A stretch of DNA of 47,325 bases. Source: an uncultured Phocaeicola sp. Its GTDB lineage: Bacteria > Bacteroidota > Bacteroidia > Bacteroidales > Bacteroidaceae. The notes below the pieces were generated by a model. It made no database searches. It was not told the DNA's origin and saw only the letters and a list, made by a program, of their open reading frames with translations. Below are positions 8,087 through 46,348 of this stretch, piece by piece; within the stretch, counting starts at the first letter, position 1, and every line of letters starts with the position of its first letter. The translations under genes and the position numbers were made by a program. The stretch is from assembly GCA_944320855.1 (NCBI GenBank), contig CALUJF010000022.1, positions 1 to 47,325 of the forward strand. The letters are read 5' to 3'.

Positions 8087-9752
<1,666 letters not shown>

Positions 9753-15244: not shown

Positions 15245-15518
15245 GGCTTTCTCCTTTCTTGAAAAACAGTGTCAGTACTAACCATGCAGCGATGATACTG
15301 CCACAAGTAGCCGAGAAGGCTATTATGGCTGCCTGCCATCCGAAACTGCCTAAATTTTCAATTATTCTGTCATTCGAACCTACGGAAAGGCCCATAATGA
15401 AAAGCAATAATACAATAGTGTATGAGATGGTTTTCTCTGTTTTTCTCAGAAAGTCCATGTTTCTGAATATATAACCTAAGATGATTCCTGTAAACATAGT
15501 TCCTATGATTGTAAACAT
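15234..15518 (-). CDS. LysO-family exporter, N-terminal part
   Basis: This 94-residue membrane protein has three hydrophobic spans and matches the N-terminal part of LysO, with MGLSVGSNDRIIENLG resembling the stretch after the second span. It ends TLFFKKGESHEG, with its stop overlapping the start of the C-terminal half. Both halves read cleanly with proper starts and stops, so this is a split gene rather than decay. A long leader and consensus promoter precede it. Confidence 0.8.
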   Translation of the reverse strand: MFTIIGTMFTGIILGYIFRNMDFLRKTEKTISYTIVLLLFIMGLSVGSNDRIIENLGSFGWQAAIIAFSATCGSIIAAWLVLTLFFKKGESHEG

Positions 15519-15632
15519 AACTGTAGCTTTTTAGAAATTAGAGAATATGATTGCCTTGAGATATATACTTGATATACCTCTGACTTATAATTAGGGAATT
15601 AAATGATTGTGTAACGGTTATGTTTATTGGAA

Positions 15633-31099: not shown

Positions 31100-32398
31100 A
31101 TGACAATGAAAAAGACGATATTACTGTTTTTTATGTTTTTTGCCGTATTGAGTATATCTGGTCAAACTGTATCCAATGATACGATACGGCAGGACTTGAC
31201 TAAAGATTTCCTTACCGAAATTGGTGACACTACAGATGTCATAATTACCAATATAAGTGGTACAGGCAACTGGTTTATAAGTTTCGGAGCCGGAATAAAC
31301 AGTCTTCATGCTGAAGGTAACAGGCTTTTTGACAGTGCTTTGGAGCGTTCCCGATTCGCGGCTCAGCTGAGTGTGGGAAAATGGTTTACCCCCCAGTTCG
31401 GTTTGCGTCTACAGATGGGTACAGGTTTCCTTCAAGGTTATTATTATCCTTTTGCCTTTTATAATCTTTATGATTATATGCCTGATCATACTATTATGCC
31501 TGAAGGGGTAAAACCTTATATTACAACAGTAAACGGTGAACCTGCCTTTTTACGAAAGTTCGCTTTTTCTGACTGGAGTTTGTCTTTCATGACAGATATT
31601 GTCAGATGGTTTACTCCAGATAGTCGTAGGATAGGACTTTACCTTTTTGTTGGTCCGGGTTACACTTATACATACGCCAATCAGGGACTTGAAGCTAACA
31701 ATTCTTTTGCTTTTAAGATGTCCGGTCAGTTCAATGTTAGGGTACACGAGAATTGGGATGTCTTTGCCGAGCTTCATGGAACTATTGTCGATGAATCATT
31801 CGATGGGCAGATAGGTGGATATAGCGGAAAAGTAAATCGTACTCTCGAAGGATATGCGGGAGTGAGTCTTGGTGTGTCATACCGTTTCGGAGGAAAGAAG
31901 TTTGACCGTTATGTCAAGGTTAATCCTATTGTGCATGAGTCTGTGATGCGTACAGTTACAAATGTGGTGGAGAAAAAAGTTACATTTGATGACAGAATAA
32001 TCACCACTTTTGCAGTCCGTTTCTATATTGACCAACATGATATAAACGAAGACCAGGTTCTTAATATAGAGCGAATATCCCGTTATATGAAGCGTGACCC
32101 TGAATATAAAGTACGTCTTAGCGGATTTGCTGACAAAGAAACAGCTTATCCTGAATATAACCAGCGCCTGAGTGAGCGTCGAGTTAATTCCGTAAAGAAA
32201 TACCTTGTGGAGAAATGTGGTATAGACCCGTCAAGAATAGTCTTAAATCCGCAGGGAGACAAGGTGAGAGTGTATGAGGAAGATTTCCGCTGGAACAGGG
32301 TTGTGGTGATGACTTTATTCAAAGAAAATGATGAAGATAGTAACGCACAGAATGTTGTTAAAGATAGTCTCGAAGAGAAAGAAAAAGAATCAGAATAA
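31100..32398 (+). CDS. OmpA-family outer membrane protein
   Basis: The 432-residue protein has a signal peptide (about 1-21, ending SISG), a beta-barrel-like region of about 270 residues with alternating aromatic and polar strands, and a C-terminal OmpA-type peptidoglycan-binding domain (about 300-410) with NQRLSERRVNSVKKYLVEKCGI. It would anchor the outer membrane to peptidoglycan. Its place inside the polysaccharide locus, after the dehydratase, suggests a role in export or surface retention. A related gene follows. Confidence 0.85.
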   Translation: MTMKKTILLFFMFFAVLSISGQTVSNDTIRQDLTKDFLTEIGDTTDVIITNISGTGNWFISFGAGINSLHAEGNRLFDSALERSRFAAQLSVGKWFTPQFGLRLQMGTGFLQGYYYPFAFYNLYDYMPDHTIMPEGVKPYITTVNGEPAFLRKFAFSDWSLSFMTDIVRWFTPDSRRIGLYLFVGPGYTYTYANQGLEANNSFAFKMSGQFNVRVHENWDVFAELHGTIVDESFDGQIGGYSGKVNRTLEGYAGVSLGVSYRFGGKKFDRYVKVNPIVHESVMRTVTNVVEKKVTFDDRIITTFAVRFYIDQHDINEDQVLNIERISRYMKRDPEYKVRLSGFADKETAYPEYNQRLSERRVNSVKKYLVEKCGIDPSRIVLNPQGDKVRVYEEDFRWNRVVVMTLFKENDEDSNAQNVVKDSLEEKEKESE

Positions 32399-32412: not shown

Positions 32413-33642
32413 ATGAAAACAAATATAAGATATATATTCGCCATATTGGCTTTGTTTATATGTATTGTTTCATATCCTCAGAAAGTGGAAGAAACAAGAC
32501 ATGTAAAAAGAGACAGTGTGAAAATAGATGTGAAATACAAAACGCGATATACCGCTCCTTTTTGGTCTAATTTATTTTTGCAGGGTAATTTTGCCGGTAG
32601 GGTAATTTATGGTGAGGAAGACAATGGCCTGCCGTTTTTCAAACGTCTGAAGCCTGGCTTTACAATAGGTATAGGTAAGCAGATACATCCTGACTTCGGT
32701 ATAAAACTTAGTTTTGGAGGTATGAGTCTTGACGGATGGAATCGAACTGACACATACGGAGTGTATAAGCAGTATGCCGGATGGGAACAGAATAATGACC
32801 CTATGAAAGAATACTACGAGTCTCAGGGTGTGGATACAAGTGATGGTTATGTCCATCAGATGAAATTTCTTGAAGGAAGTGCTGATATCCTTTTTGACCT
32901 TGGTAACATATTCACAAAGTATAATCATTACGGCGATCGCAAATGGCGTTTTGACGCTTATTTGGGACTTGGTTTTATCCATGTTATGCGCTGGAAAGGT
33001 ACCAGCCGAAATTCTAAAATTACGTTGCGTACCGGATTGATAACCACTTATAATATAACTCCTGAATTGGGACTGAATTTCACAATAGGTAATTCCATGA
33101 CCAGCAGTACTATTGACGGTGTAATAGGTAAAGGAGGCAAGTTGGACCATATAGGTGCCATGGCATTGGGATTGAAATATTCTTTCGGAAAACAGGGATT
33201 CAAGACCATGAGACTTGTATCCCAGTCAGAGATGCGGCAGTTGACAAATGCTTTGGCATCGACACGTCAGGAAGAAATAAAGAATGTTACAATCGAACGT
33301 ATGGTTATGGATACCACAATGTTGGGTGGTTTGCTTATACCGTCTGTTGTGTTTTTCCCAAACAAGGCAGAGTATAACAAGGAACTTCAGCAGGTTAATC
33401 TGTACCGTATAGCCTTGTTTATGAATCTATATAAGGATATAACCATAACTATTGTAGGAAATATTCATAAATCTCAACGCTACATAGCAGAAAAGAGGGC
33501 TGAAATAGTCCGCAGAATCCTGATTCAGGATTATGGTATAGAACCTAAAAGATTGAAGACAGATGTTTACGATTTGAATCAAAAATTCGGTGTCCAGGGA
33601 TATGAACACTCTGTAAGTTTCACTTTCTATAAAGAAGAATAA
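32413..33642 (+). CDS. OmpA-like outer membrane protein with divergent C-terminal domain
   Basis: The 409-residue protein has a signal peptide (about 1-20) and a beta-rich barrel-like region similar in layout to the preceding gene product. Its C-terminal domain keeps the OmpA order (AEKRAEIVRRILIQDYGIEPKRL) but lacks the usual NxxLSxxRA and GxxD-type residues, so peptidoglycan binding is doubtful. The two proteins are probably paralogues from a tandem duplication. It precedes the membrane protein gene by three bases. Confidence 0.75.
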   Translation: MKTNIRYIFAILALFICIVSYPQKVEETRHVKRDSVKIDVKYKTRYTAPFWSNLFLQGNFAGRVIYGEEDNGLPFFKRLKPGFTIGIGKQIHPDFGIKLSFGGMSLDGWNRTDTYGVYKQYAGWEQNNDPMKEYYESQGVDTSDGYVHQMKFLEGSADILFDLGNIFTKYNHYGDRKWRFDAYLGLGFIHVMRWKGTSRNSKITLRTGLITTYNITPELGLNFTIGNSMTSSTIDGVIGKGGKLDHIGAMALGLKYSFGKQGFKTMRLVSQSEMRQLTNALASTRQEEIKNVTIERMVMDTTMLGGLLIPSVVFFPNKAEYNKELQQVNLYRIALFMNLYKDITITIVGNIHKSQRYIAEKRAEIVRRILIQDYGIEPKRLKTDVYDLNQKFGVQGYEHSVSFTFYKEE

Positions 33643-33645
33643 TAA

Positions 33646-34917
33646 ATGATTCTGCTTTTATTCCTGTTTTTCTTTATTGATATAATTTTATTGGAGTTTT
33701 CCACACTATTCTTTCCGGTATTAAGGGAGGATGTGGAATTCTATTCACTGATATTTATATTGGTGCATGTAGCATTCATTATATATTATATCGTATTTAC
33801 TGAAGGGAAATACAAGAATATACTATTATTGGGGTTGATATTAAGGTTGGTTATATTGTTTGCAGATATATATCATTGGTTTCCGGTGCTGCATTCTGGT
33901 GGAGATTCAGAGATGTTTCATAAAGTAGCTCTCAAAAATCAGATTTGTGAAGAGCAGGTTGAGATGACATATTACTCATCGTTTTTAACGTTTTTGTATT
34001 CCATTACATACTCTTCAAGAATAATAGCTCAGTATTTTAATCTTTTGATGGGTATTTCCATATTGTTCATTGTAAGAAAGATATTTGATATTTTGGACGT
34101 TGATAATAAAGTGGCATTGATTTCCATGATTATTTTAGCATGTATGCCTAATTTTGTGATATTTTCAGGAATACTTCTTCGTGAGGCTTGGGTGGAATTT
34201 TTTGTTATACTTTCAGTGTATTTCTTTGTCAGGTGGTTTGTCGGTGGAAACAGCCTTAATATTCCATTGTGTTTGGGTTCTATATTACTTGCTGCAGTAA
34301 TGCACTCCGGTACCTTGGTTGTAATAATAGGATATGTATTGGCTTTTTTATCGTATAATCCCTCAACAGGTCATGTGCAGTTTTCCGGTAATACAGTTGT
34401 GTTTGTTGTTATTGCCACTTTTATGATTTTGCTTTTAGGAGGTAACAGTGAAATGTTTACAGGGAAATTCAATAATGTAGAGTCTTCCAAGGATTTGCTG
34501 TCAACTGTTAATCATGAATCGGAGGGAGGATCAGTATATTTAACGTGGATTAAGGCTGATAGTCTGTGGATGGGGTTTGTATTCTCTCCATTAAAAATGT
34601 TTTATTTCCTTTTTTCCCCCTTGCCTACCAATTGGCGTGGATTTGGAGATATAATAGCATTTATTATAGACAGTTCTTTTTATATATTTTTATGCTGGAA
34701 CATAGCGAGAAATTATAGTTTAAGTAATAAATTTGGAAGCATTAAGCTGTTTCTATTGATAGGCTTAAGTATCTCTGTTTTTGTCTTTTCGTTTGGCACA
34801 TACACGGCAGGAACAGCTTTACGCCACAGAGCAAAACTGTTACCGATGCTTACAGTGCTTTATGCGGTAAGTTCATCGTCGTTGAATATTAAAGAAGATT
34901 CTGAAGAAAATGAATAA
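33646..34917 (+). CDS. Multi-span membrane protein, candidate polysaccharide polymerase
   Basis: The 423-residue protein has about ten or eleven hydrophobic spans. After the second or third span there is a loop with HSGGDSEMFHK, and near the C-terminus GTALRHRAKLLPML, both of which recall Wzy polymerases or GT-C glycosyltransferases. I do not recognise a specific family. It is the only polymerase candidate in the locus, which otherwise has a flippase, Wzc and Wza. Its end overlaps the wzc start by eight bases. Confidence 0.6.
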   Translation: MILLLFLFFFIDIILLEFSTLFFPVLREDVEFYSLIFILVHVAFIIYYIVFTEGKYKNILLLGLILRLVILFADIYHWFPVLHSGGDSEMFHKVALKNQICEEQVEMTYYSSFLTFLYSITYSSRIIAQYFNLLMGISILFIVRKIFDILDVDNKVALISMIILACMPNFVIFSGILLREAWVEFFVILSVYFFVRWFVGGNSLNIPLCLGSILLAAVMHSGTLVVIIGYVLAFLSYNPSTGHVQFSGNTVVFVVIATFMILLLGGNSEMFTGKFNNVESSKDLLSTVNHESEGGSVYLTWIKADSLWMGFVFSPLKMFYFLFSPLPTNWRGFGDIIAFIIDSSFYIFLCWNIARNYSLSNKFGSIKLFLLIGLSISVFVFSFGTYTAGTALRHRAKLLPMLTVLYAVSSSSLNIKEDSEENE

Positions 34918-37279
34918 TAAAAAAATAAGAAGTTCGTCTTCAATATCCTTGAGTGATATAATTCCCATTTTACTCCATAAATGGTATTGGTTTGTAATAT
35001 CCATTGCTGTATGTGTGTCATTGGCGTTTTATTACGAACGCAGCACTCCACAGGTATATAAACGTTCGGCAACTGTATTTATAAAGGTAGCGGCAAAAGG
35101 AATGCAGATGCCCACTGCGGCAACAGCAATAGCTGAGGTGGATGTGCTTAAAACAGTAAGCAGTGTTGAAAATGAGATTCTTATTTTCAAGTCAAAACGA
35201 CTGATGAGGGAGGTTGCCAGACGATTGAAATTGGATGTCAGTTATAAGGGACACGGGAGATTCCGTGACTGGGAAATGTATAATTTATCTCCTGTTAAGG
35301 TTCAATTCTCTGATGAGGTTAATTTGAAAAATTTCTCGTTTGAATTGATGCCTATAAATGAAAAAGAAGTTGTCCTGTCCAAATTTTCCGGTAATACACT
35401 GTTTCGTGTTGATAAAGAGCATAGTATAACAGCTTTATTGAATGATACAATAGATACCCCTGTAGGTAGAATAGTAATAAATCCGACAATTAACTATTCG
35501 GATGAATTTTACAATAATGAATTGTCAGTGGTTAAGTCTAACATAGAAGCTGTTGCATTGGCGTGTAGCGCTGGACTTATTGCTGAACCGGCAGGAGGAC
35601 TTTCCAGTGTGGTGAAACTCACAATAAATGATGTCTCACCACAGAGGGCTGAAGATATACTGAATACTCTTATCGAAGTATATAACGAAGATGCCATAAA
35701 CGATAAGAACAGGGTGGCGGAAAGTACGTCAGAATTTATAAACGAAAGATTGATTCTCATTGAACAGGAACTTGGAGGGGTTGACAGCCAAATAGCCGAT
35801 TTTAAGAGCGAAAATAAACTTACAGACATATCTTCCGAGGCAGGAATGTTTATGAGTAATCTTAATGCTTATCAGCAGGAAATTTTGTCGCTTCAGACAC
35901 AGAAAGAACTTTCCGGATATATAAAACAGCATATTTTAAATCCTGATAATCTGGCAGAACTTATACCTTCTAATACAGGTATATCTGATGCCAATATCGA
36001 AAACCAGATTCAGTCATATAATTCATTGCTTTTGGAGAGAAATAAGCTGTTGGAAAGCAGTGGGAGCAGAAATCCTTTTTTGTTGGAAATTAATGCCACT
36101 TTGTCTTCCATGCAGCAGACAATATTACGTACTGTTGACGCTTTTATTACCGGTATAGATATGAAGATTGATAATCTTATGGCTGTGGAAGATAGGACAA
36201 TGAAGAGAATAGCCTCTGTGCCGTCGCAACAGAAATATGTATTGTCTGTAGAGCGCCAGCAGAAAATAAAGGAATCACTTTATCTTTTCCTTTTGAACAA
36301 ACGCGAGGAAAGTGCTTTGTCAAAGGCTGTAACTGAAGAAAACGCAAGAATAATAGATCCGGCTATGGGTAGTAATACTCCGATATCTCCTAATTCAAAT
36401 GTCATTATGCTTGCCGGTTTGTTTATGGGCATTTTCATTCCTTCATGTGTTTTGTGGTTGACCGTTGCATTCGATACCAGAATTAAAAGCAAGAAAGATT
36501 TGGAAATTCTTTCCATACCGTTATTGGCAGAGATTCCTTTGCATGAGCGTGAGAAAAATGAAAAAAACGAGCTTATAGTAATCAGGGAAGATGACAATAA
36601 TAGAATTGCAGAGTCGTTCAGGATTATGCGTGCCAATATGCAATTCATAAAGAATGGAGACAGCAACCTGAAGGTGATAATGTTTACATCACTATTTCCT
36701 GGTGCCGGAAAAACTTTCGTATCGTCCAATTTTGCCATGAGTCTTGCCATGGCAGGAAGTAAAGTTATAATTTTGGATATGGATATCCGTCGTGGTTCTT
36801 TAAGTAAACATTTGGGAAGGAAGATGACAGGATTGACTGATTTTCTTATATCAGATAATGATGATTACTCTGGATTTGTCCATAATTCACCTCAAAATGA
36901 TAATCTCTATTATATAGGCAGAGGAACAGTTCCTCCAAATCCATCTGAACTGTTGTTGAATCAGCGTTTGGATAAACTTATAGACAAACTTAAGGCTGAA
37001 TTCGATTATATAATAATAGACAGTGTACCGTCAAACGTTATAGCAGATGCAATAATAGTGAACAGGATAGCGGATATTACTATGTATGTGGTAAGGGCTT
37101 ATAAATTGGACAAACATTTTCTATCGGAAATTCAAGACTTATATGATGACAATAAATTTAAAAACCTGAATTTGATACTTAATGGGGTGAAACATACCGG
37201 AGGTAAGTATGACAGTTATTATGGCTATTACTCTTCAAAGCCGGTAAGGAAATCAAAAATAAGATTCTTTAAAGGTTAA
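34910..37279 (+). CDS. wzc: Wzc-type polysaccharide co-polymerase and tyrosine autokinase
   Basis: The 789-residue inner-membrane protein has a Wzz domain between two membrane spans (about 23-42 and 495-515) with a coiled-coil periplasmic part, then a cytoplasmic BY-kinase domain with Walker A SLFPGAGKTF (about 593-602), Walker A' ILDMDIRRG and Walker B YIIIDSVP (about 700). The C-terminus has a tyrosine cluster, YDSYYGYY (about 767-774), the autophosphorylation site. It controls chain length and export with Wza. Unusually, a peptide, lipoprotein and PqqD gene lie between it and wza. Confidence 0.93.
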   Translation: MNNKKIRSSSSISLSDIIPILLHKWYWFVISIAVCVSLAFYYERSTPQVYKRSATVFIKVAAKGMQMPTAATAIAEVDVLKTVSSVENEILIFKSKRLMREVARRLKLDVSYKGHGRFRDWEMYNLSPVKVQFSDEVNLKNFSFELMPINEKEVVLSKFSGNTLFRVDKEHSITALLNDTIDTPVGRIVINPTINYSDEFYNNELSVVKSNIEAVALACSAGLIAEPAGGLSSVVKLTINDVSPQRAEDILNTLIEVYNEDAINDKNRVAESTSEFINERLILIEQELGGVDSQIADFKSENKLTDISSEAGMFMSNLNAYQQEILSLQTQKELSGYIKQHILNPDNLAELIPSNTGISDANIENQIQSYNSLLLERNKLLESSGSRNPFLLEINATLSSMQQTILRTVDAFITGIDMKIDNLMAVEDRTMKRIASVPSQQKYVLSVERQQKIKESLYLFLLNKREESALSKAVTEENARIIDPAMGSNTPISPNSNVIMLAGLFMGIFIPSCVLWLTVAFDTRIKSKKDLEILSIPLLAEIPLHEREKNEKNELIVIREDDNNRIAESFRIMRANMQFIKNGDSNLKVIMFTSLFPGAGKTFVSSNFAMSLAMAGSKVIILDMDIRRGSLSKHLGRKMTGLTDFLISDNDDYSGFVHNSPQNDNLYYIGRGTVPPNPSELLLNQRLDKLIDKLKAEFDYIIIDSVPSNVIADAIIVNRIADITMYVVRAYKLDKHFLSEIQDLYDDNKFKNLNLILNGVKHTGGKYDSYYGYYSSKPVRKSKIRFFKG

Positions 37280-37349: not shown

Positions 37350-37357
37350 TATCTTTG
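37350..37357 (+). promoter_or_regulatory. Possible internal -7 box before the small peptide gene
   Basis: TATCTTTG lies 38 bases before the small-peptide ATG at 37395 and fits the -7 consensus. I see no good -33 element 19-21 bases upstream, so it may be weak or need an activator. Confidence 0.45.
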
Positions 37358-37394: not shown

Positions 37395-37574
37395 ATGGGA
37401 AAAAAGAAATATTCAAAACCGGAATTGCGCACATTGAGAATCAATCCTTCTGAGATGTGTGCGGGGAGTGTTTGTACAACAATTGATATAAATGTAATTG
37501 AAGGATCCAGAAAAGATATCACACACGTGGTTCCTGAAAACAGTGGAGGAGGAAGCTGGGATGAGAATTTCTAA
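37395..37574 (+). CDS. Small peptide with YxxPxL leader-like motif (RiPP precursor candidate)
   Basis: The 59-residue ORF has a basic start, MGKKKYSKPEL, with YxxPxL at residues 6-11, the motif by which lasso-peptide leaders bind their stand-alone PqqD-fold partner. After it come two Cys (22 and 27) and a Gly/Ser-rich end, GGGSW. It begins 37 bases after a -7-like box, and its last codons overlap the lipoprotein start. A PqqD-fold gene lies two genes on. No signal peptide or known domain is seen. It is too short for many gene finders but has an ATG, a -7-like box and a clear context. Confidence 0.65.
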   Translation: MGKKKYSKPELRTLRINPSEMCAGSVCTTIDINVIEGSRKDITHVVPENSGGGSWDENF

Positions 37575-38832
37575 TTTTTTTATAATTATTCTTTTATCAT
37601 CTTTTTCATTTATTTCATGTAATAAATCAGATGATGAAGATTTATATTCTTTTGCAGATTATCCATTTACTGTCTGTACTGATTATAAATTATTTGTAGA
37701 TGAGGGTAGTAAATTCAATACCAACTTGCCATCAAGAGGATGGGAAGGTGAGGTCGATGATGAAGCTCAACTATTGCCGACTAAATATCCAATGGATAAG
37801 ATTTATCTGTTTTCCATAACTAATAATAGTCAAAGTAATACAAAATATGAGACATTGGAGTTTCCTGTTTATGAAGTTGATGGGAAACAGGTTTTTGATA
37901 TTTGTTTCAGAGCCGAAGGCGGTAAAGTGTGGGCAAAAAATGGTTTGGATTCAGTTTTGGTGGCAAATGGTGCCCCATTTCAATCGTTTTTCTCTTCTTC
38001 TCCTGAGTTGGAAACATCTATGGAATTGTGTGACGTAAAGACTGAAGGAGGAAATGATACATACGAACCATACGGTGACAGACTTTTTAAAAGTGATAAT
38101 TTGATGTTTATGGCAGTCGGAGACCAGGTCATGTGCCTTCCTTCATACAAACCTGTGACAGAAATGTCTTTGGAAATGGAACGATTGACAAATGTTATAA
38201 TTCCAAGGTTTATGTTGTGTGATGACTTGGATGTGTCTAAGGATGAATATGCTCTGGATTTGTCAAAGTTTACCAGTGTTCTTGGCCCGGTTGAAGATTG
38301 GGAGGTCAGAGCTTTTGTCGCAGGTGATCAAGATGCTGGTGCTCCATACTCCAATGGATTTCCTGTTGATTATAACCTTATGGATGGAACTGATGAGAAC
38401 GGAAACAGAGGTATAATAAATATATCACAAGATTATCAGAAATTAAATGGTAATTTTACGCATAGCACAGTTTCGGTAGGAGGTGCGGCAACATCATACA
38501 AGGGAATGGGTTATCATAGTGATTCAACCCCATTTATATTTCCTGCTTCAACTGCTGGTAAATCAGATTTATGCTTTACATTCCGATATGTAGGGAATGA
38601 TCCTGAGATTAAGGCAAAATTAAATAATAATGGAATAAATACATTTAGGTTTCATGCGACAGAAGATTTGACAAAAGGTGCATTAAGACTTGTAACAGTT
38701 GTCATGGACATAGATGAATTTATAGATGCTTTTTTGAATGTATCAACTCGTACAAAAGGTTCAGTATCTGTGATTCCTGATCCGGATTTTGGGCATGTTA
38801 TAGTTGCTCCTTATACGCTTTTCTTTGATTAG
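37561..38832 (+). CDS. Secreted lipoprotein of unknown function, possibly fimbrillin-like
   Basis: The 423-residue protein starts with a lipoprotein signal MRISNFFIIILLSSFSFISC and the Cys is followed by an Asp/Glu-rich stretch, as in many surface-exposed Bacteroidota lipoproteins. The rest is beta-rich with no motif I recognise; DKIYLFSITN near residue 75 slightly resembles the start of fimbrillin-type domains. The start ATG lies inside the last codons of the small peptide gene (14-base overlap), so their translation may be coupled. The PqqD gene follows one base after its stop. Confidence 0.75.
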   Translation: MRISNFFIIILLSSFSFISCNKSDDEDLYSFADYPFTVCTDYKLFVDEGSKFNTNLPSRGWEGEVDDEAQLLPTKYPMDKIYLFSITNNSQSNTKYETLEFPVYEVDGKQVFDICFRAEGGKVWAKNGLDSVLVANGAPFQSFFSSSPELETSMELCDVKTEGGNDTYEPYGDRLFKSDNLMFMAVGDQVMCLPSYKPVTEMSLEMERLTNVIIPRFMLCDDLDVSKDEYALDLSKFTSVLGPVEDWEVRAFVAGDQDAGAPYSNGFPVDYNLMDGTDENGNRGIINISQDYQKLNGNFTHSTVSVGGAATSYKGMGYHSDSTPFIFPASTAGKSDLCFTFRYVGNDPEIKAKLNNNGINTFRFHATEDLTKGALRLVTVVMDIDEFIDAFLNVSTRTKGSVSVIPDPDFGHVIVAPYTLFFD

Positions 38833-38833
38833 A

Positions 38834-39118
38834 ATGGAAGAAAAAATAATGCTTAATCCGTCATATATGTTAAGTAAGGTAGGTGATGACCATGTCCTTC
38901 TGCCTTACGATGAATCCGGCGGAGTAGATCTGACAGAAATAATCGTACTTAACGAAACTGCATACGATATAGTGTCTTTTATAGAAAATAGGTCATTAAC
39001 CCGTTATGAAATCTTTGAGCATCTATATAGAATGTACGATATATCAAAGGAAGAACTATATGCCGATATTGATGAATTTATTTCTGAACTTGATAAGCAT
39101 AAAGCACTTGTAAGATAA
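38834..39118 (+). CDS. PqqD-fold peptide-recognition protein
   Basis: The 94-residue protein matches the PqqD (RRE) family: a beta-rich start to about residue 38, then LNETAYDIVSFI (39-50) and the helical part ISKEELYADIDEFISELDKH (70-89). PqqD proteins hold peptide leaders for modifying enzymes, and similar stand-alone proteins occur in lasso-peptide and some exopolysaccharide clusters. The ATG at 38834 is preferred over an in-frame TTG at 38804 within the lipoprotein gene. Wza follows after four bases. Confidence 0.85.
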   Translation: MEEKIMLNPSYMLSKVGDDHVLLPYDESGGVDLTEIIVLNETAYDIVSFIENRSLTRYEIFEHLYRMYDISKEELYADIDEFISELDKHKALVR

Positions 39119-39122
39119 AAAT

Positions 39123-39893
39123 ATGCGACCATTACAATATACTTATATACTTTTAATCTTGTTTTTGTCCTCTTGTATGGCTCCTAAGAAAGTTGTTTAT
39201 TTTCAGGATGCCGATGTTAGAGATGAAAGTATAGTAACGGATGACTATGAGTTAAAGATAAAAAAAGATGATTTGCTTTCAATAGTAGTCGGAAGTAGTA
39301 AGCCGGAATTAGCAATTATATTTAACTTGAATAATGGTAGTTCTATAAATACCTCATCTGGTACGTCTGGTAATTCAACATCATATATTGTTGATACAAA
39401 AGGATATATCAATTTTCCAGTATTAGGTGAAGTTTTGGTGGAAGGAATGACTTGTAGTGAACTGAAGAAATATATTGAGGCAAAAATTATTGATAGTGAA
39501 TATCTGAAAGATCCGGTAGTTACAGTAAGATTACTAAACTTTAAGATTTCTGTTTTGGGTGAAGTTAATAAGCCTGGTTGTTACGATATAGGTAGTGAAA
39601 GATTGACTATTCTTGATGCAATTAGTAAGGCTGGAGATTTAACAATTCACGGTAAGCGTGATAAAGTGGCTGTTATTAGGGAAATAAATGGTAAAAGGAC
39701 TGTATTATACCATGATTTGCGTTCATCGGATGTATTTGAATCACCATGTTTCTATTTGCAACAGAACGATGTGGTATATGTAGAACCTAATAAGGCTCGT
39801 TCTGCTCAACGGGGTATATTCAGCAATGCAAGTTTGTGGATATCTATTATTTCTGTTTCTGTTTCAATAATATCAGTTTTATTATTGAGGTAA
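39123..39893 (+). CDS. wza: Wza-type polysaccharide export lipoprotein
   Basis: The 256-residue protein has a lipoprotein signal with Cys18 (LILFLSSCMAPKK), a Poly_export domain (about 40-130) and a SLBB domain (about 140-200; VLGEVNKPGCYDI). A hydrophobic segment ends the protein (about 235-255). It would form the outer-membrane channel that works with Wzc. It is shorter than E. coli Wza (379 residues) and has one SLBB unit, a common Bacteroidota form. Confidence 0.92.
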   Translation: MRPLQYTYILLILFLSSCMAPKKVVYFQDADVRDESIVTDDYELKIKKDDLLSIVVGSSKPELAIIFNLNNGSSINTSSGTSGNSTSYIVDTKGYINFPVLGEVLVEGMTCSELKKYIEAKIIDSEYLKDPVVTVRLLNFKISVLGEVNKPGCYDIGSERLTILDAISKAGDLTIHGKRDKVAVIREINGKRTVLYHDLRSSDVFESPCFYLQQNDVVYVEPNKARSAQRGIFSNASLWISIISVSVSIISVLLLR

Positions 39894-39906
39894 TTAAAAC
39901 ATAATA

Positions 39907-40956
39907 ATGTATAAGCGTCCTCTGCATCACGAATTGTTTCTTGATCTTTTACGTTCTGCATTATGGAATAAAGTTCCGGATTCTAATCTGTTTAGAAATC
40001 TTGATGAAACTATATGGCTGAAGTTGATAAGCATAGCTCAGAAACAGGCTCTATTAGGAGTTTGTTATCCGTCTTTAAGTCGTTTGCCGTCAGATTGCAG
40101 ACCTCCCCAAAATATATATCTTGTTTGGGCCGCAAAGGCTAATTATATCCGTCAGGATAATAAAAAGAAACTTCTGGTATTATCTGAATTACTGTCTCTT
40201 TTTGAGAAAAATGGTATATATCCTATAGTAATGAAAGGATTTTCATCTGCTGTTTTATATCCTGAACCAGATTTACGGATATTTGGAGATATAGATTTGT
40301 TTATTCCTGATAATTATGAGGACTCTTTGAAACTTGTTTCAGATTTAGGTTATGAGATGTCTGAAACAGAAAAACATCATAAATTTTATTATAAAGGAGT
40401 ACTTATAGAATTACATCACAATATAGTAAGCCGGCCATTTTGTATTCATTATAGTTATAATATAATAGAACAAAATTATGATGGATTATGTTTTAGAACC
40501 TTTGATAATATAACGACTGCCATTTTGTTGTTGACACATTCTGTAGCTCATCTTATTGGTCCTGGTTTAGGATTCCGTCACGTTTGCGATTGGGTTATGT
40601 TTAATTACAATAATAAGGATAGTATTGACAATGAGTTATTGGCAAACTCTGTAAATAATAATAGATTAGTACGCTTTATTAATATATTTAATGGTTTAAT
40701 AATTAATTTGAAATTAATAGACGAAAGTTGGATATCATATACAGAAAAAAAAGGAAGTCATGTATATAAAAAGGAAATAACATCTTTGGAAAAAGATATT
40801 TTTAGACAAGGTGACTGTGGTAAAGAAGAATTGTTTTATCGTAGGAATATGAAATCTTTGTGGGTTTATTATAGGGTATTTATTAGATTTATAAGATTCT
40901 TTAGATATGATGTTATTTTGGCAATATTTATACTAAAGTCTAAATTTGTTAAATAA
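39907..40956 (+). CDS. Nucleotidyltransferase-like protein (NTP_transf_5 type)
   Basis: The 349-residue protein has the catalytic-looking GDIDLF (residues 127-132, with Asp128 and Asp130 as metal ligands) after MKGF, and later RHVCDW, as in the PF14907 nucleotidyltransferase family. Members are found with PqqD-fold and HPr-kinase-like proteins in lasso-peptide and exopolysaccharide clusters, where they may transfer nucleotidyl groups to peptides. The substrate here is unknown. It lies 13 bases after wza. Confidence 0.8.
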   Translation: MYKRPLHHELFLDLLRSALWNKVPDSNLFRNLDETIWLKLISIAQKQALLGVCYPSLSRLPSDCRPPQNIYLVWAAKANYIRQDNKKKLLVLSELLSLFEKNGIYPIVMKGFSSAVLYPEPDLRIFGDIDLFIPDNYEDSLKLVSDLGYEMSETEKHHKFYYKGVLIELHHNIVSRPFCIHYSYNIIEQNYDGLCFRTFDNITTAILLLTHSVAHLIGPGLGFRHVCDWVMFNYNNKDSIDNELLANSVNNNRLVRFINIFNGLIINLKLIDESWISYTEKKGSHVYKKEITSLEKDIFRQGDCGKEELFYRRNMKSLWVYYRVFIRFIRFFRYDVILAIFILKSKFVK

Positions 40957-40971
40957 TTGGTTAATCTTGAT

Positions 40972-41889
40972 ATGAAAAAAAAACAAAATGTTACTCCTAA
41001 CAGAATCAAATTGGTATATTGGGATGTTAAAAATTTTGGGGATTTGCTTGGTCCATATATAGTTTCTAAATTAAGTTCTAAAAAGATAATTCATAAAACT
41101 TTCTATCACGGAGTAGTATGTAGTATAAAACAGTTGCTTTATGGTTTGATACATTTTAATATAAAAGGATTAAAGTCTAATTTATTCAGTTGGGAGAATA
41201 ATTTATTATCTGTAGGTTCCATATTGGGATGGGGAAATAAGAAATCTGTTGTCTGGGGAAGTGGATTTATATCAGAAAATCAATCTTTTAAGGGAGGGAC
41301 GATTTGTGCATTACGAGGAAAATATTCTGATATTAAATTGAGAGAAGAAGGCTTTCAGGGTTCATCAGTTTATGGAGATCCGGCATTATTGTTGCCTTTG
41401 ATTTTTTCTCCGATTGTTACTAAAACCCACGAAATAGCAATTATTCCACATTGGTCAGAAACTGATTTTTTTATAGAAAAATTGGGGAATAAATATAAAA
41501 TAATAGATTTGCGTACTACAAATGTTGAAAAGATTATAACAGAAATAACATCTTGTAAAAAAGTCCTTTCTACTTCGCTTCACGGATTGATAGTTTCACA
41601 TGCCTATGGAATACCAGCCTTGTGGATAAGATATAATAAATTGCATAACAGTAATTTTAAATTTTTTGACTATTTTAGTTCTGTGGGTATAGAAGAATAT
41701 GAAGGATTTTTGAATATTGATGAGATTTTATTTTCAGAAAGTAGTTATAATCTTTTATTTGATCAGAATAAAAATAAATGTCTCCCTAATGTTGAATTAA
41801 AATCAATTCAAAAATCTTTGTTGTGTGCTGCACCTTTTGAAGTGAATGATATATTCTTTTATAAATTACAGTCATACAAAAATGAATAA
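40972..41889 (+). CDS. Polysaccharide pyruvyl transferase-like protein
   Basis: The 305-residue protein resembles the PF04230 family: an early KNFGDLLGPYIV stretch and a GDPALLLPLI stretch (about residue 135) followed by SLHGLIVSHAYGIPALWI. Such enzymes add pyruvyl ketals to sugars or act as related glycosyltransferases. The ATG at 40972 is used rather than the in-frame TTG at 40957. The next gene starts inside its end with an 8-base overlap. Confidence 0.82.
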   Translation: MKKKQNVTPNRIKLVYWDVKNFGDLLGPYIVSKLSSKKIIHKTFYHGVVCSIKQLLYGLIHFNIKGLKSNLFSWENNLLSVGSILGWGNKKSVVWGSGFISENQSFKGGTICALRGKYSDIKLREEGFQGSSVYGDPALLLPLIFSPIVTKTHEIAIIPHWSETDFFIEKLGNKYKIIDLRTTNVEKIITEITSCKKVLSTSLHGLIVSHAYGIPALWIRYNKLHNSNFKFFDYFSSVGIEEYEGFLNIDEILFSESSYNLLFDQNKNKCLPNVELKSIQKSLLCAAPFEVNDIFFYKLQSYKNE

Positions 41890-42874
41890 CAAATTAATAT
41901 CTATAATAGTTCCGGTTTTTAATGTAGAGAAATACATCATTCAATGTGTGGATAGTATTCTTTCGCAAACATACAATAATTTTGAACTATTACTAATTGA
42001 TGACGGAAGTACTGATAATTCAGGAAAAATATGTGATGACTATGCATTTAAAGATGAACGAATAAAAGTTTTTCATAAGAAGAATGAAGGTGTAAGTTCC
42101 GCCAGAAATTTTGGATTGGATAATGCTTCAGGTGAATGGATAACATTTGTTGATAGTGATGATTGGTTGGACGAAACTGCGTTAACATGCTTTATTGAAG
42201 AGAACTTACAGGATGATACTTTTTATGTAGGACAGGGACTAAGGGTTGAGAATAATGAACTTAAATATTGGCCCTCAAGATATTATAAAGGTATTGTCGT
42301 TTTAGAATCTGTTGAAGACTATTCTTTGTTAGACGAAGTTCTGGTATATGGTACTCCGTGGGGAAAACTTTATAACTCACAGATTATAAAAAAATACAAT
42401 ATCCGTTTTGACAACAATTTATCTATACATGAAGATCATTGTTTCTATTTTGAATATATTTTGCATGTAAAGAGAATACAGGTAATTGATAAAGTCTGTT
42501 ATTACTACAGAGTGGAGGGGAACGGTATGTCGCTTTCTTCGAGTCTTAAATCATTAGATATGCTATTATATTCGTATAAAAGGTTAGATGTATTATTTAA
42601 TGATATAGTGACATGTTTTAGGTTAGATATAGATAAACTGACTGCGATAAAACATTTTTTAGCGTCAATAAAGATTGGTTGTATGAGAGTGGCTTTTAAT
42701 GATTGTAAGCCTCGAAAAGTTTGTTATGAAATTCTGAAAAGTATAAAAACAGAAGATATAAAAAGCTATCATCCTCTGTCAAGGAGCGGTAAGTTGCTTA
42801 AAGGTATTTTAAATATAAAATCTAAGTGGATAAAGTATAACATATTTTTCTTAGTAAGAAAGAAGCTGAATTAG
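41882..42874 (+). CDS. Family 2 glycosyltransferase
   Basis: The 330-residue protein has a GT-A fold start, ISIIVPVFNVEKYI (residues 6-19), DDGSTDNS (40-47) and the metal-binding FVDSDDW (89-95). It would add one sugar to the lipid-linked repeat unit. The chosen ATG (41882) overlaps the pyruvyltransferase-like gene by eight bases. Donor and acceptor cannot be told from sequence. Confidence 0.92.
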   Translation: MNNKLISIIVPVFNVEKYIIQCVDSILSQTYNNFELLLIDDGSTDNSGKICDDYAFKDERIKVFHKKNEGVSSARNFGLDNASGEWITFVDSDDWLDETALTCFIEENLQDDTFYVGQGLRVENNELKYWPSRYYKGIVVLESVEDYSLLDEVLVYGTPWGKLYNSQIIKKYNIRFDNNLSIHEDHCFYFEYILHVKRIQVIDKVCYYYRVEGNGMSLSSSLKSLDMLLYSYKRLDVLFNDIVTCFRLDIDKLTAIKHFLASIKIGCMRVAFNDCKPRKVCYEILKSIKTEDIKSYHPLSRSGKLLKGILNIKSKWIKYNIFFLVRKKLN

Positions 42875-42907
42875 TACTGACGTATAAAAACAATTAAGAT
42901 TTTATTA

Positions 42908-44431
42908 ATGCAAGGTAGTAATAGACGCATAGCAAAAAACACATTAATATTATATGTCCGGATGTTGTTTACTATGGTATTGGGATTATATACCTCAAGG
43001 CTTGTTCTTAATACTTTAGGCGTTACAGATTATGGTATATATAATGTCGTAGGTGGTATCATTACTTTGTTGGGATTTATCAATAACTCAATGTCTTCTG
43101 CTTCATCACGATTTCTTACATTTGAGTTAGGTACTGGAAATATAGAGAGACAGAAAAAGGTATTTGGACAGAGTTTATTTATACATTTACTTATAGCTAT
43201 ATTAGTTGCCTTTTTGGGAGAGACTATTGGACTTTGGTTTGTTTATGAAAAAATAAACATTCCGGTAGAAAGATTCTTTTCGGCAATTGTGGTGTACCAC
43301 GTATCTGTTGCAACTGCATTCTTTAATATAATATGTGTACCATATAGTGCTTTGATAATCGCTCATGAAAAGATGAGGGCATTCGCATATATAACTATAT
43401 TAGATGCCGTGTTAAAGTTGGTTATATTATTTGTTTTAATGGTGTTGCCATATGATAAATTAATTGTATATTCGATACTTTTATTTATAGTTCAGATTCT
43501 TATTCAAATAATTTATATATCATATTCTTTAAATAATTTTCAAGAAAGTAAGAATTGGTTTGTATGGGATAGATGTTTGTTTAGAGACATGTTTTCTTTT
43601 GCATGTTGGTCTATGTTTGGTAATTTGGCTGTTACTTTATTTAGCCAAGGCTTGAATGTTCTTATTAATATTTTCTTTGGTCCAACGGTAAATGCTGCAC
43701 GAGGAATAGCTGTTCAAGTACAAGGATTAGTCGGACGTTTTATTGAAAATTTCCAGATAGCTTTAAATCCGCAAATAACAAAACAATATGCATCCGGTGA
43801 AATTATTTCAATGCATAGGCTTATATTTATGAGTTCCAAATATTCTTTCTTTTTGATGATGCTTTTGTCTCTTCCTTTATTGATTAATACTGATTATGTT
43901 CTTGGATTATGGCTAAAAACTGTTCCTGAATATACGGTAATATTCGTTAGAATAATGTTGTTTATTTCAATAATGGGGACATTGTCAAATCCTTTGATAG
44001 TATCAGCTCAAGCTACAGGAAGAATCCGTGTTTACCAACAGGTAGTAGGAGGAATATTACTTGGAATTCTACCGGTAGCTTATATTTTTCTAAAATCAGG
44101 AGCACCTGTATATTCTGTGTTTATTGTACATTTGGTATTTACGCTAATAGCTCATTGCGCACGTGTTTATATGATCAGACCCATGATAAAACTATCTATA
44201 AGAGAGTATGTGCATAAAGTTGTTATAAGAGTATGCGGAGTATTGATTTTTTCTGCTACAATCTCTATCCCATTGAGTATGTTACATGAAGGTGTGTCAT
44301 TTATAACTTTCATGTTGGATACTTTAATATGTATGATTGTATCTTTAATTGTCATATTTTATATTGGTATGGATAAAGTGGAAAAAGAATTCCTTATTTT
44401 AAAGTTTAAAGAGGTTATAAGGAAGTTTTAA
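42908..44431 (+). CDS. Polysaccharide flippase (Wzx-like, MATE/MOP superfamily)
   Basis: The 507-residue protein has about twelve to fourteen hydrophobic spans and begins RRIAKNTLILYVRMLFTMVLG, a start typical of Wzx flippases. It carries conserved stretches such as NTLGVTDYGIYNVVGG. It would move the undecaprenyl-linked repeat unit across the inner membrane. Together with Wzc and a polymerase candidate this indicates Wzy-dependent assembly. Confidence 0.9.
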   Translation: MQGSNRRIAKNTLILYVRMLFTMVLGLYTSRLVLNTLGVTDYGIYNVVGGIITLLGFINNSMSSASSRFLTFELGTGNIERQKKVFGQSLFIHLLIAILVAFLGETIGLWFVYEKINIPVERFFSAIVVYHVSVATAFFNIICVPYSALIIAHEKMRAFAYITILDAVLKLVILFVLMVLPYDKLIVYSILLFIVQILIQIIYISYSLNNFQESKNWFVWDRCLFRDMFSFACWSMFGNLAVTLFSQGLNVLINIFFGPTVNAARGIAVQVQGLVGRFIENFQIALNPQITKQYASGEIISMHRLIFMSSKYSFFLMMLLSLPLLINTDYVLGLWLKTVPEYTVIFVRIMLFISIMGTLSNPLIVSAQATGRIRVYQQVVGGILLGILPVAYIFLKSGAPVYSVFIVHLVFTLIAHCARVYMIRPMIKLSIREYVHKVVIRVCGVLIFSATISIPLSMLHEGVSFITFMLDTLICMIVSLIVIFYIGMDKVEKEFLILKFKEVIRKF

Positions 44432-44462
44432 TAAGAATCTTTCATTATAATTATAACTATAT

Positions 44463-45194
44463 ATGATACCTAAAATTATTCATCTTTGCTGGTTGTCAGG
44501 AGATGAGTTTCCTGAAAAAATAAAGTATTGCATAGAGTCGTGGAAGAAAGTTCTGCCAGACTATGAAATAATGCTTTGGGATTTAAAGCGTTTCGATATT
44601 AATGACTCTTTATGGGTAAGACAGGCTTATGAATCGAAAAAATATGCTTTTGCTGCCGACTACATTCGTTTTTATGCTCTTTATTATTATGGTGGTATAT
44701 ATTTGGATTCTGATGTTGAGGTGATAAAAAGTTTGGATTGTTTTTTGGATTTACCTTATTTTGTCGGTTTTGAGGATGCCGGTAATCAACATTTAGAACC
44801 TGCCGTAATGGGTGCCGAAAAAGGTTTGAGCTGGATTAGGGATTGTCTGGATTACTATAAAGGTAGAGAATTTATTGTCGATGGTAAATATGACATGAAG
44901 CCTTTGCCTGTTATATTGGGGGGACGTATAAAGAGTACTTTAATGATTCCTGATAAAAAGTCTTTTGATTATAATATTGATGATATAATACAGGCTTTTC
45001 CTAAAACTTATTTTAGTCCAAAGGAAGGAGTAACCGGAGATTTAAAATTTTTGTCTGATAAAACATATACTATACATCACTATGCGGCATCGTGGCTTCC
45101 TTTTACAAATCAAGTATATATATTACTTCATAAAGTCTTTTCTAAAAGGGTGGCTCAATGTATGTCTAAAATATGGTACTTCTTTAAGCGTTAA
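44463..45194 (+). CDS. Glycosyltransferase with DxD (GT32/capsular polysaccharide synthesis type)
   Basis: The 243-residue protein starts IPKIIHLCWLSG and has YYYGGIYLDSDVEV (residues 74-87) with the DxD motif at 82-84, the pattern of GT32-like (Gly_transf_sug) transferases. The KYAFAADYIRFYALY stretch before it is also typical. Substrate unknown. Confidence 0.9.
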   Translation: MIPKIIHLCWLSGDEFPEKIKYCIESWKKVLPDYEIMLWDLKRFDINDSLWVRQAYESKKYAFAADYIRFYALYYYGGIYLDSDVEVIKSLDCFLDLPYFVGFEDAGNQHLEPAVMGAEKGLSWIRDCLDYYKGREFIVDGKYDMKPLPVILGGRIKSTLMIPDKKSFDYNIDDIIQAFPKTYFSPKEGVTGDLKFLSDKTYTIHHYAASWLPFTNQVYILLHKVFSKRVAQCMSKIWYFFKR

Positions 45195-45241
45195 AACTTT
45201 CTTTTTATCATATATGTTTTTGTAAATTTAGATTTTCTGAT

Positions 45242-46237
45242 ATGACAGTAAATAATAATAAGTTTGAATATAGTGTAGCGATACGTACGCTTGGAACCGG
45301 AGGTGAAAAATATCGCAAAGAGATAGAATCATTACACAGTCAAACCATAAAGCCAAAGAATATATTTGTTTTTATAGCCGAAGGCTATAAACGTCCGGAT
45401 TTTCAGATTGGTATTGAAAATTATATATATGTTCAAAAAGGATTGGTACACCAACGTGCGGCATCATTACAGGGTGTTGACACTGAGTTTTTGCTGATTC
45501 TTGATGATGATATATTCCTTCCAGACAATGCCGTAGAAAGATTATATGAGATAATGGTGGCTTATGATGCTGATTGTATAGCTCCTGAAACTTTTAATAA
45601 TCAGAATTTGAGCTTATTTCAAAAAATAGGTTATTATGTGGCTAATGGTGTAAAAACAAGAGGTAATGATGAATGGGCTATTAAAATATTGCGTAACGGG
45701 ACTTTTTCTTTTAACTCGGCTCCTGATAAAGGTGGTGTTTATTTAACTCAGAGCTTTCCTGGAACTGCTTGCTTCTGTAAAACTGAGGTTTTTCGTGATA
45801 TACATTATGAGGATGAAATTTGGATAGATCAGTTTCCTGCAGGTACGTTTGGGGAGGATCAGATAATGTCATATAAACTTTATAAGAATGATTATAAAGT
45901 TTTGATGGCTTATGATACGGGTATATTGCATTTGGATGCAGGAACTAACAATGTACATGAAAAGCCTTATAAAAAAATCAAATACCGGGCTTTGTCTTAT
46001 TATTTGACGTGGTATCGTACTTGTTATGACTTAAAGGGAAATGGAATCTTTGAAAAGTTTCTTTGTATTTTAGCATATTTGTGGCGTTTCATACTAGGAC
46101 TTTGTACAAGAATAGTGTATTCAATTGTAAAGTTACAACCAAAACATTTGATAGCTTTTATGCATGGAAATATAGAAGGATTATGTTTTGCGTGGAGTAA
46201 AAAATATAAGCAACTGAATAACTTTATTTTAAAGTAG
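45242..46237 (+). CDS. Family 2 glycosyltransferase
   Basis: The 331-residue protein has a GT-A core with VAIRTLGTGG (12-21) and the acidic motif LLILDDDIFLPD (84-95). A hydrophobic stretch near residues 275-300 may associate it with the membrane. It follows the GT32-type gene after 47 bases. Sugar specificity is unknown. Confidence 0.85.
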   Translation: MTVNNNKFEYSVAIRTLGTGGEKYRKEIESLHSQTIKPKNIFVFIAEGYKRPDFQIGIENYIYVQKGLVHQRAASLQGVDTEFLLILDDDIFLPDNAVERLYEIMVAYDADCIAPETFNNQNLSLFQKIGYYVANGVKTRGNDEWAIKILRNGTFSFNSAPDKGGVYLTQSFPGTACFCKTEVFRDIHYEDEIWIDQFPAGTFGEDQIMSYKLYKNDYKVLMAYDTGILHLDAGTNNVHEKPYKKIKYRALSYYLTWYRTCYDLKGNGIFEKFLCILAYLWRFILGLCTRIVYSIVKLQPKHLIAFMHGNIEGLCFAWSKKYKQLNNFILK

Positions 46238-46240
46238 AAT

Positions 46241-46312
46241 ATGTTATTATTAAGTTTAATTGTACCAGTACTCAATATGGAGGATTTATTTTTTATAATG
46301 ATAGTTTCATGA
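46241..46312 (+). pseudogene. Relic start of a family 2 glycosyltransferase gene
   Basis: After the preceding glycosyltransferase gene, 24 codons read MLLLSLIVPVLNMED then a short unrelated run and a stop. SLIVPVLNMED closely matches the first strand of family 2 glycosyltransferases. The rest of the gene is absent, which suggests deletion or recombination at this spot. Confidence 0.5.
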
Positions 46313-46348
46313 TATAAACAATAGAAATAACAATAAAGGCTGTATGGA

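Follow-up and report, generated by a model that had tools for sequence, protein, structure and literature searches.

A precursor-like peptide encoded with a lipoprotein and a PqqD-fold protein in a Phocaeicola polysaccharide export locus

The window, i.e., the entire 47,325-nucleotide stretch of Phocaeicola DNA analysed here, encodes a short peptide, a lipoprotein-like protein, a stand-alone PqqD-fold protein and a nucleotidyltransferase in a single run of genes with wzc and wza (Table 1). The peptide gene begins 115 nt after wzc and overlaps the lipoprotein gene by 14 nt; thereafter gaps of 1, 4 and 13 nt separate the lipoprotein, PqqD, Wza and nucleotidyltransferase genes. Both this gene set and its tight spacing, as claimed in an earlier note on this DNA, are borne out by the ORF lists and by Pfam and NCBIfam matches. 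That note had also reported the window to be devoid of a maturase, protease or cyclase: our own profiles find no kinase, S24-like, radical-SAM or exporter types in it, and no cyclase is recognisable in its ORF lists. An ABC-profile match at 8130 proved, upon reading, to be an unrelated ATPase. The wzc–peptide gap holds TATCTTTG, which is presumably a Bacteroides −7-type box; no good −33 box is seen. Among the downstream genes, we take those at 42908 and 46349 to code for a flippase-like and a UDP-galactopyranose-mutase-like protein and others to code for glycosyltransferases, as read from the ORF list. Homologues of the two outer-membrane-protein-like genes at the head of the table adjoin a peptide–lipoprotein pair in related loci.

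Table 1. Features of the window in and around the polysaccharide export genes.
Feature	Position	Strand	Basis
Outer-membrane-protein-like gene, C-terminal OmpA-like part	31100–32398	+	Profile searches
Outer-membrane-protein-like gene	32413–33642	+	OmpA match under cut-off
Wzy-like membrane protein	33646–34917	+	By eye, from position and sequence; no Pfam/NCBIfam family over cut-off
Wzc-type chain-length tyrosine kinase	34910–37279	+	TIGR01007, 143.8 bits (cut-off 108)
Putative −7-type promoter box, TATCTTTG, in wzc–peptide gap	37350–37357	+	Intergenic block identical in sister species
Precursor-like peptide, 59 aa	37395–37574	+	ORF list; dN/dS; leave-out profile; family alignment
Lipoprotein-like protein, 423 aa from the ATG at 37561	37561–38832	+	Lipobox-like FISC, by eye
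Stand-alone PqqD-fold protein (RiPP recognition element type), 94 aa	38834–39118	+	PF05402, 45.3 bits (cut-off 23.4)
Wza-type polysaccharide export lipoprotein	39123–39893	+	PF02563, 64.7 bits
NTP_transf_5 nucleotidyltransferase, intact	39907–40956	+	PF14907, 141.1 bits (cut-off 31.2)
Polysaccharide assembly genes, including glycosyltransferases	40972–47281	+	ORF list reading
Pyruvyl transferase	40972	+	PS_pyruv_trans, 48.4 bits

The peptide displays the sequence YSKPEL at residues 6–11 (Y6, P9, L11), the YxxPxL motif that had been read in this 59-residue product before; it lies in a putative leader of about residues 1–25, near whose end is A23-G24-S25, followed by a C-terminal part of about residues 26–59 that includes W55. 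No family in Pfam or NCBIfam matches it, and no plasmid-borne near copy was recovered. Relative to the version from a sister Phocaeicola species, it shows 15 synonymous changes over 36.2 sites and 4 non-synonymous changes over 140.8 sites. The resulting dN/dS of 0.048 points to purifying selection; hence, the peptide is a real gene and a spurious ORF is ruled out. A chance motif is likewise ruled out by two observations: (i) YxxPxL near the N-terminus is found in only 9 of 4209 ORFs of 40–120 aa from 80 related loci (true family members included) and in one of the 102 such ORFs of the window, the peptide itself; (ii) with the window and sister peptides withheld from its construction, a profile ranks the peptide first among the 181 window ORFs of 30–150 aa (E 6e-5, the next at 0.72). 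The overlap of the peptide stop with the lipoprotein start could be taken to mean that the ORF merely couples translation to the lipoprotein gene and has no peptide function; given the low dN/dS and an amino-acid motif that extends across the family, we find this scarcely credible. Instead, the peptide is, with high probability, a genuine precursor with a leader.

The peptide belongs to a many-copy family of Bacteroidaceae that is general, rather than restricted to polysaccharide operons. Its members share an N-terminal half with YxxP that ends near an Ala/Gly-Ser, whereas the C-terminal half is variable in the two subfamilies tested. To elaborate, in these subfamilies, which we picked ourselves and in which the split point falls early in L089 and L058, identity in the Y..[AG]S segment is 0.82 against 0.30 in the remainder for 9 peptides (shuffle 0.28), and 0.58 against 0.32 for 13 peptides (shuffle 0.25); the window–sister pair is alike along its whole length. 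A conserved N-terminal half joined to a variable C-terminal half is a feature shared with RiPP precursors. The family alignment shows no conservation of the motif's Leu, and the Tyr/Pro invariance in our profile A3 is partly circular because its rows were partly selected by the expression [YF]xx[PA]; the independent tests are the leave-out profile and a test using position only, read by eye.

The best relatives in the PDB of the window PqqD family profile are the lasso B1 proteins TfuB1 (7e-8) and TbiB1 (1e-5), although the window PqqD remains far under the cut-offs of the curated lasso PqqD models NF033536 (15.4 bits, cut-off 80) and NF033530 (14.0 bits, cut-off 70). These relatives, taken with the two-part pattern of the peptides in the two subfamilies, strengthen the previously proposed reading of the N-terminus as a leader. 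Across 301 family genomes, 204 have both peptide and PqqD, 11 the peptide only, 41 PqqD only and 45 neither, i.e., PqqD is present in 204 of 215 peptide-positive genomes, several of the 11 exceptions being incomplete; these counts are uncorrected for phylogeny and presume that the same genomes entered both searches. By analogy to lasso leaders, we consider binding of the window peptide by PqqD to be probable. Loci with PqqD number 67 by our own summation over groups. When the same gene order was sought elsewhere, as the earlier note had suggested, peptide and PqqD proved to recur in related loci, and the sister locus alone showed the order exactly as in the window. Searching with the window PqqD gave a close match (90%) in only one of the 60 other genomes of the genus.

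The most constant neighbour of the peptide gene is a lipoprotein gene, be the polysaccharide locus present or absent. PqqD, Wza and Wzc occur together in 35 loci, and in 31 of these the sequence continues past wzc, making them testable; a peptide of the same family lies downstream of wzc in 21 of the 31, 15 of which were rows of the search profile, and 10 are without it. Judged by these loci, the proposal of the earlier note is not refuted on the ground it had itself named, namely absence or non-conservation of the peptide beside PqqD and wza. Where a downstream lipoprotein is present, the peptide is found in 21 of 24 loci; where it is absent, in 0 of 7 (Fisher 4.6e-5). Pairing scored by position, with no use of the motif, holds in 18 of 21, the lipoprotein of L099 being retained in this and the 31-locus count despite its resemblance to an outer-membrane protein. 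More loosely, 29 of 34 family hits have a lipoprotein-like gene within 150 nt after them, against a background of 269 of 843, and in these 29 cases the two genes overlap or lie at most about 100 nt apart. The genome of the window codes for four more such peptides, each 11–22 nt before a lipoprotein-like gene (one, on C7, once an inner start is chosen). A closer look at 11 loci for the peptide yielded a possible relative in L060 only: a family-like ORF of 57 aa lacking the Pro, between the nucleotidyltransferase gene and wza, in a locus scored as a miss. In L094, a weak upstream match to a long radical-SAM-type peptide was left out of the counts. In some family genomes, the peptides come after secreted proteins instead of lipoproteins; these are presumably T9SS-tailed, with NCBIfam giving no confirmation for the three tested.

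Since the lipoprotein is the steadiest partner whether or not polysaccharide genes are present, the peptide need not have a role specific to the polysaccharide, a change from the reading in the earlier note. The constancy and closeness of the pairing would also suit an unmodified peptide that serves the lipoprotein as a small subunit or in a chaperone-like capacity, held by PqqD before export, with the kinase and nucleotidyltransferase directed at other targets. In line with this, two of nine partner lipoproteins searched from relatives match fimbrillin-type families, one over the cut-off (P_gingi_FimA) and one below it (Mfa_like_1). Yet, the partner lipoproteins do not form one recognisable family, and a variable C-terminal part beside a conserved N-terminal half is unusual in a structural subunit; we therefore hold this alternative to be rather unlikely. 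The window lipoprotein itself matches no Pfam or NCBIfam family over cut-off, a phmmer search with E up to 1 retrieves only its sister copies, and AlphaFold2 returned no usable model (2-row alignment, pLDDT 29).

The window nucleotidyltransferase is modelled with a nucleotidyltransferase fold (pLDDT 91.4), and K110, G127, D128 and D130 are among the residues invariant in 52 sequences. A sequence search of the PDB gave no relative, returning one meaningless row (E 0.87), and identity to the NTase-fold transferases ANT(2'')-Ia and FKRP is about 9–12%. Two other nucleotidyltransferases of the same genome sit in a glycan locus on contig C12 without PqqD, so the window enzyme may act on a glycan. 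One could accordingly envisage PqqD, kinase and nucleotidyltransferase all serving polysaccharide assembly (Wzc, Wza or the glycan) with the peptide as a passenger, and a set of PqqD, nucleotidyltransferase, HprK, Wza and Wzc does recur, in some loci even in the absence of peptide or lipoprotein, as in Sphingobacterium (L080) and Alistipes (L066, L071). Against this, the peptides co-occur with PqqD across the family genomes, and PqqD sets are found away from Wza/Wzc too, making such a passenger role improbable. HprK-related kinase A/PqqD systems of exopolysaccharide loci, typified by TIGR04352, resemble the present one in that kinase-like and PqqD-type proteins occur near exopolysaccharide genes in relatives; the present system differs in including a lipoprotein and a precursor-like peptide, and the kinase-like protein of this genome scores under the model's cut-off.

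This kinase-like protein is encoded on another contig (C46) than the window (C22), in the order PqqD–ABC–S24-like–HprK-like–PqqD, thus bringing together kinase-like, peptidase-like and ABC-exporter genes with two further PqqDs. In the C46 set, S33 and H71 are kept in 25 of 25 aligned sequences and the P-loop residues in at least 53 of 55. The kinase and peptidase names are weak: the proteins fall short of TIGR04352 (21.7 bits, cut-off 200) and TIGR02228 (17.3 bits, cut-off 51.85), and our own profiles for them include the C46 sequences themselves. Whether this putative set acts in trans on the window peptide we regard as evenly poised. Radical-SAM maturation in cis is rejected: neither the window contig nor C46 holds any of the 16 genome matches, and on the peptide-bearing C10 and C48 the single match is separated from the peptide by at least 12 kb. 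An apparent radical-SAM version exists in other genomes of the genus, as judged from the motif by eye and our own profile.

Among described systems, the closest are the lasso clusters with a kinase and a nucleotidyltransferase, namely paeninodin, pseudomycoidin and bsf. The bsf cluster of Bradymonas combines a YxxPxL precursor with PqqD-type B1, kinase and nucleotidyltransferase (PMC10368454), and in the case of pseudomycoidin, the nucleotidyltransferase transfers hexoses in vivo to the peptide in its phosphorylated form (PMC8498205). The shared parts, i.e., YxxPxL leader, stand-alone PqqD-type B1, HPr-kinase homologue, nucleotidyltransferase and ABC exporter, could suggest that we are dealing with a lasso or another already described RiPP cluster, and two of 23 family members weakly match the paeninodin family (best E 0.018, also their best in NCBIfam; best in Pfam 0.049). 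However, the B2 transglutaminase-like leader protease PF13471 has no match in the genome (about 90% complete; control matches in 2 of 14 genomes), and the one Asn_synthase gene of the genome lies on contig C5 rather than on C22 or C46, leaving no lactam synthetase nearby. The present system further differs in having its parts spread over two loci, an S24/S26-like protein, and several precursors per genome, mostly beside a lipoprotein gene. From the protease and Asn_synthase results, we reject a lasso cluster and deem any described RiPP cluster very improbable. Rather, we read the system as lasso-like recognition and tailoring without lasso chemistry, for many lipoprotein-linked peptides.

On balance, we lean modestly towards the following: the 59-aa ORF would encode a precursor that is modified in a PqqD-dependent manner, exported and partnered with a lipoprotein. 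PqqD would hold the leader (the first ~25 residues) via Tyr6-x-x-Pro9-x-Leu11, as inferred from lasso leaders. The boundary might lie near Met21–Ser25, a stretch in which a small-residue/Ser motif is common to most of the family, leaving a core of ~35 residues. The S24/S26-type peptidase-like protein from C46 would probably remove the leader, the HprK-like kinase might phosphorylate the peptide, and the window nucleotidyltransferase might add a nucleotide- or sugar-phosphate-derived group; that one or both of the latter putative enzymes modify the peptide seems to us somewhat favoured. The product could then be exported to the surface, perhaps by the ABC exporter encoded on C46, to meet the co-encoded lipoprotein. 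The same machinery might serve at least four other peptide–lipoprotein pairs of the genome; here, peptide, PqqD and nucleotidyltransferase would have been placed into a polysaccharide export operon. As a more speculative and unlikely extension, one machinery might phosphorylate a Ser (the conserved boundary one, or one in the core) of many peptides, with PF14907 proteins forging a phosphodiester to a sugar or exported polysaccharide, thereby generating peptide-capped or peptide-anchored glycans or lipoproteins.

If the main reading is correct, leader-guided peptides would be numerous in Bacteroidaceae and would usually be paired genetically with a lipoprotein or, here, also with a polysaccharide exporter; we know of no such purpose for RiPPs. 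It would also provide a testable substrate for two orphan groups of Bacteroidaceae, the stand-alone PqqD proteins and the PF14907 nucleotidyltransferases. Described Bacteroidales RiPP families come from the same order and likewise involve precursor peptides (PMC10352776); none of the terms HPr kinase, exopolysaccharide, capsul or lipoprotein occurs there, and PqqD does so once, in the reference list. In the open-access literature, a scope that leaves preprints and subscription papers aside, neither a peptide–lipoprotein pair of this kind nor a Wza/Wzc operon that includes a precursor peptide was recognised among the matches listed. The locus types are carried by the named strains Phocaeicola plebeius DSM 17135 (L046) and P. 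coprophilus DSM 18228 (L051), which makes a direct test possible.

The 59-residue peptide encoded between wzc and wza is, judged from its sequence, a genuine gene. Against the copy in a nearly identical sister locus (Phocaeicola MAG CALUIE010000019.1, which makes the window presumably Phocaeicola as well), it shows 15 synonymous changes over 36.2 sites and 4 non-synonymous changes over 140.8 sites (dN/dS 0.048); a family profile built without either copy recovers it at E 6e-5, with the runner-up of 181 window ORFs at 0.72. A YxxPxL motif close to the N-terminus is uncommon, occurring in 1 of 102 small ORFs in the window and in 9 of 4209 in the best 80 of 127 related loci, true members counted. 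Our best reading is that the peptide is a precursor in a widespread Bacteroidaceae system in which most peptides go with lipoproteins, its placement in a polysaccharide export operon being one arrangement among several.

Genes around the peptide
Gene	Coordinates	Strand	Setting
wzc	34910-37279	+	within polysaccharide locus
peptide	37395-37574	+	within polysaccharide locus
lipoprotein	37561-38832	+	within polysaccharide locus
PqqD	38834-39118	+	within polysaccharide locus
wza	39123-39893	+	within polysaccharide locus
PF14907 nucleotidyltransferase	39907-40956	+	within polysaccharide locus

The window is one of 123 contigs of a 3.3-Mb, ~90% complete genome. Its Wzx/Wzy-type polysaccharide locus, on the plus strand, opens with an UpxY-like gene (28497) and closes with a UDP-galactopyranose-mutase-like gene (46349), some of the gene names being provisional; tight spacing begins at the peptide gene, upstream of which lies a candidate -7-type box. 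The earlier note had placed a peptide in a polysaccharide export operon, and this proves to be something real, with the parts at the tabulated coordinates and the peptide under selection. The components recur in related polysaccharide loci. The exact order was met beyond the window only in the sister when 61 genus genomes were queried with the window PqqD, which matched 15 of them (its own included) and, of the others, only the sister closely (90%).

A search with the nucleotidyltransferase alignment confirmed 127 of 186 candidate stretches. Among the best 80, PqqD is present anywhere in the stretch covered in 67 (own profiles, summed over groups) and PqqD, Wza and Wzc occur together in 35. 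In one frequent arrangement PqqD comes first, then nucleotidyltransferase, HprK-like kinase, Wza, Wzc, peptide and lipoprotein, followed in several cases by an outer-membrane protein; the window has equal parts but rearranged, and lacks the HprK-like kinase. As four of the 35 stop at or right after wzc, 31 are testable: 21 carry a family peptide downstream of wzc (15 of these peptides had been profile rows), and 10 have none. Seven related loci (L025, L026, L027, L029, L032, L094, L108) encode one or several ~130-aa peptides starting near Y[VT]KP, along with PqqD, nucleotidyltransferase, Wza/Wzc and, in most, an HprK-like kinase; several add a radical-SAM-like protein (motif and own profile). 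These are a variant on the same theme. Bacteroidales-like loci also appear in Roseburia (L106), Rickettsiales (L087) and Fibrobacter (L109) MAG records, where binning contamination is possible.

The most constant partner of the peptide is the lipoprotein rather than the polysaccharide. With a lipoprotein-like gene of at least 340 aa downstream, 21 of 24 loci have the peptide, versus 0 of 7 without (Fisher 4.6e-5). With no motif required, 18 of 21 loci with the lipoprotein within 1.7 kb of wzc hold a YxxP peptide between the two genes; the exceptions are L060, L088 and L099. The L088 gap retains in frame only an ORF like the C-terminal half; the gene there (15328-15574) seems frameshift-broken, and a second, intact-looking peptide precedes the next lipoprotein. 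Of 34 family matches (E up to 0.01) among 4815 small ORFs in the best 80 of 127 loci, 29 have a lipoprotein-like gene no more than 150 nt downstream, by a loose test that 269 of 843 ORFs of at least 250 aa pass. Five peptide matches occur in the genome to which the window belongs; the four besides the window peptide (contigs C7, C10, C13 and C48) are all found 11-22 nt upstream of a lipoprotein-like gene, the C7 spacing depending on the choice of inner start, and apart from polysaccharide genes within the 12-18 kb examined. The lipoprotein pairing is not universal, since in some family genomes, perhaps Prevotella-like, peptides come after secreted proteins instead. At L039, L040, L138 and L141, YxxP peptides lie immediately 3' of large secreted proteins, in several copies in the first two; some tails of these proteins resemble what we take to be T9SS signals, and NCBIfam gave no T9SS confirmation in the three tested.

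The peptides appear to be divided into a conserved leader and a variable remainder. In nine short peptides, chiefly from Bacteroides and Mediterranea records, mean identity is 82% from the Tyr to a small-Ser motif and 30% beyond it (shuffle 28%). The corresponding figures for 13 wzc-linked peptides are 58% and 32% (shuffle 25%). Among 34 non-profile peptides, whose selection favours the N-terminal values, YxxP occurs in 33, [AG]S 10-30 residues on in 28 and Trp in the last 16 residues in 20, against backgrounds of 5%, 22% and 23% in 3196 small ORFs. PMC10368454 places YxxPxL of lasso leaders at -17 to -12; this spacing would put the boundary after Cys22, adjoining Ala23-Gly24-Ser25. As the family motif and the lasso spacing converge, a leader/core boundary near these residues is suggested.

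The PqqD family profile finds the lasso B1 proteins TfuB1 (7e-8) and TbiB1 (1e-5) as best relatives among solved structures; B1 proteins bind the leader, according to PMC7533575. The window PqqD is mostly 20-30% identical to profile members (from 17% for the most divergent up to 90% for the sister) and scores far under curated lasso PqqD cut-offs. Across 301 family genomes, PqqD occurs in 245 and the peptide in 215: both in 204, peptide alone in 11, PqqD alone in 41 and neither in 45 (Fisher p 1e-19, kinship ignored; a lone match at E up to 0.01 is weak evidence). Up to 16 peptides were counted in a genome, and positive ones one to three PqqD matches.

We reject a lasso cluster, since the ~90% complete genome has no match to PF13471, the lasso B2 protease, and its lone Asn_synthase gene lies away from these loci. 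On our best reading, the Bacteroidaceae system recognises and tailors its peptides much as phosphorylated lasso peptides are handled, but lacks lasso chemistry. Another contig, C46 (L033 9661-13505), encodes PqqD, an ABC transporter, an S24/S26-like protein, an HprK-like kinase and a second PqqD, with no peptide match or recognisable precursor beside them. The transporter assignment is strong, the S24/S26-like and kinase names weak; two relatives of the S24-like protein exceed the Peptidase_S24 cut-off, Ser33 and His71 are kept in 25/25 peptidase-like proteins, presumably as in SEC11-type signal peptidases, and the kinases keep the P-loop. We infer that this set might serve the window peptide, given the complementarity of the window's peptide, PqqD and nucleotidyltransferase with the kinase-like, peptidase-like and exporter genes of C46. 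In two family genomes (L135, L142), PqqD, S24-like and HprK-like kinase genes adjoin one and the same kind of sigma-factor-like gene, which may mark a fixed site. Contig C12 (L153 9002-10036 and 12874-13890) has two further PF14907-type nucleotidyltransferases in a second glycan locus without PqqD.
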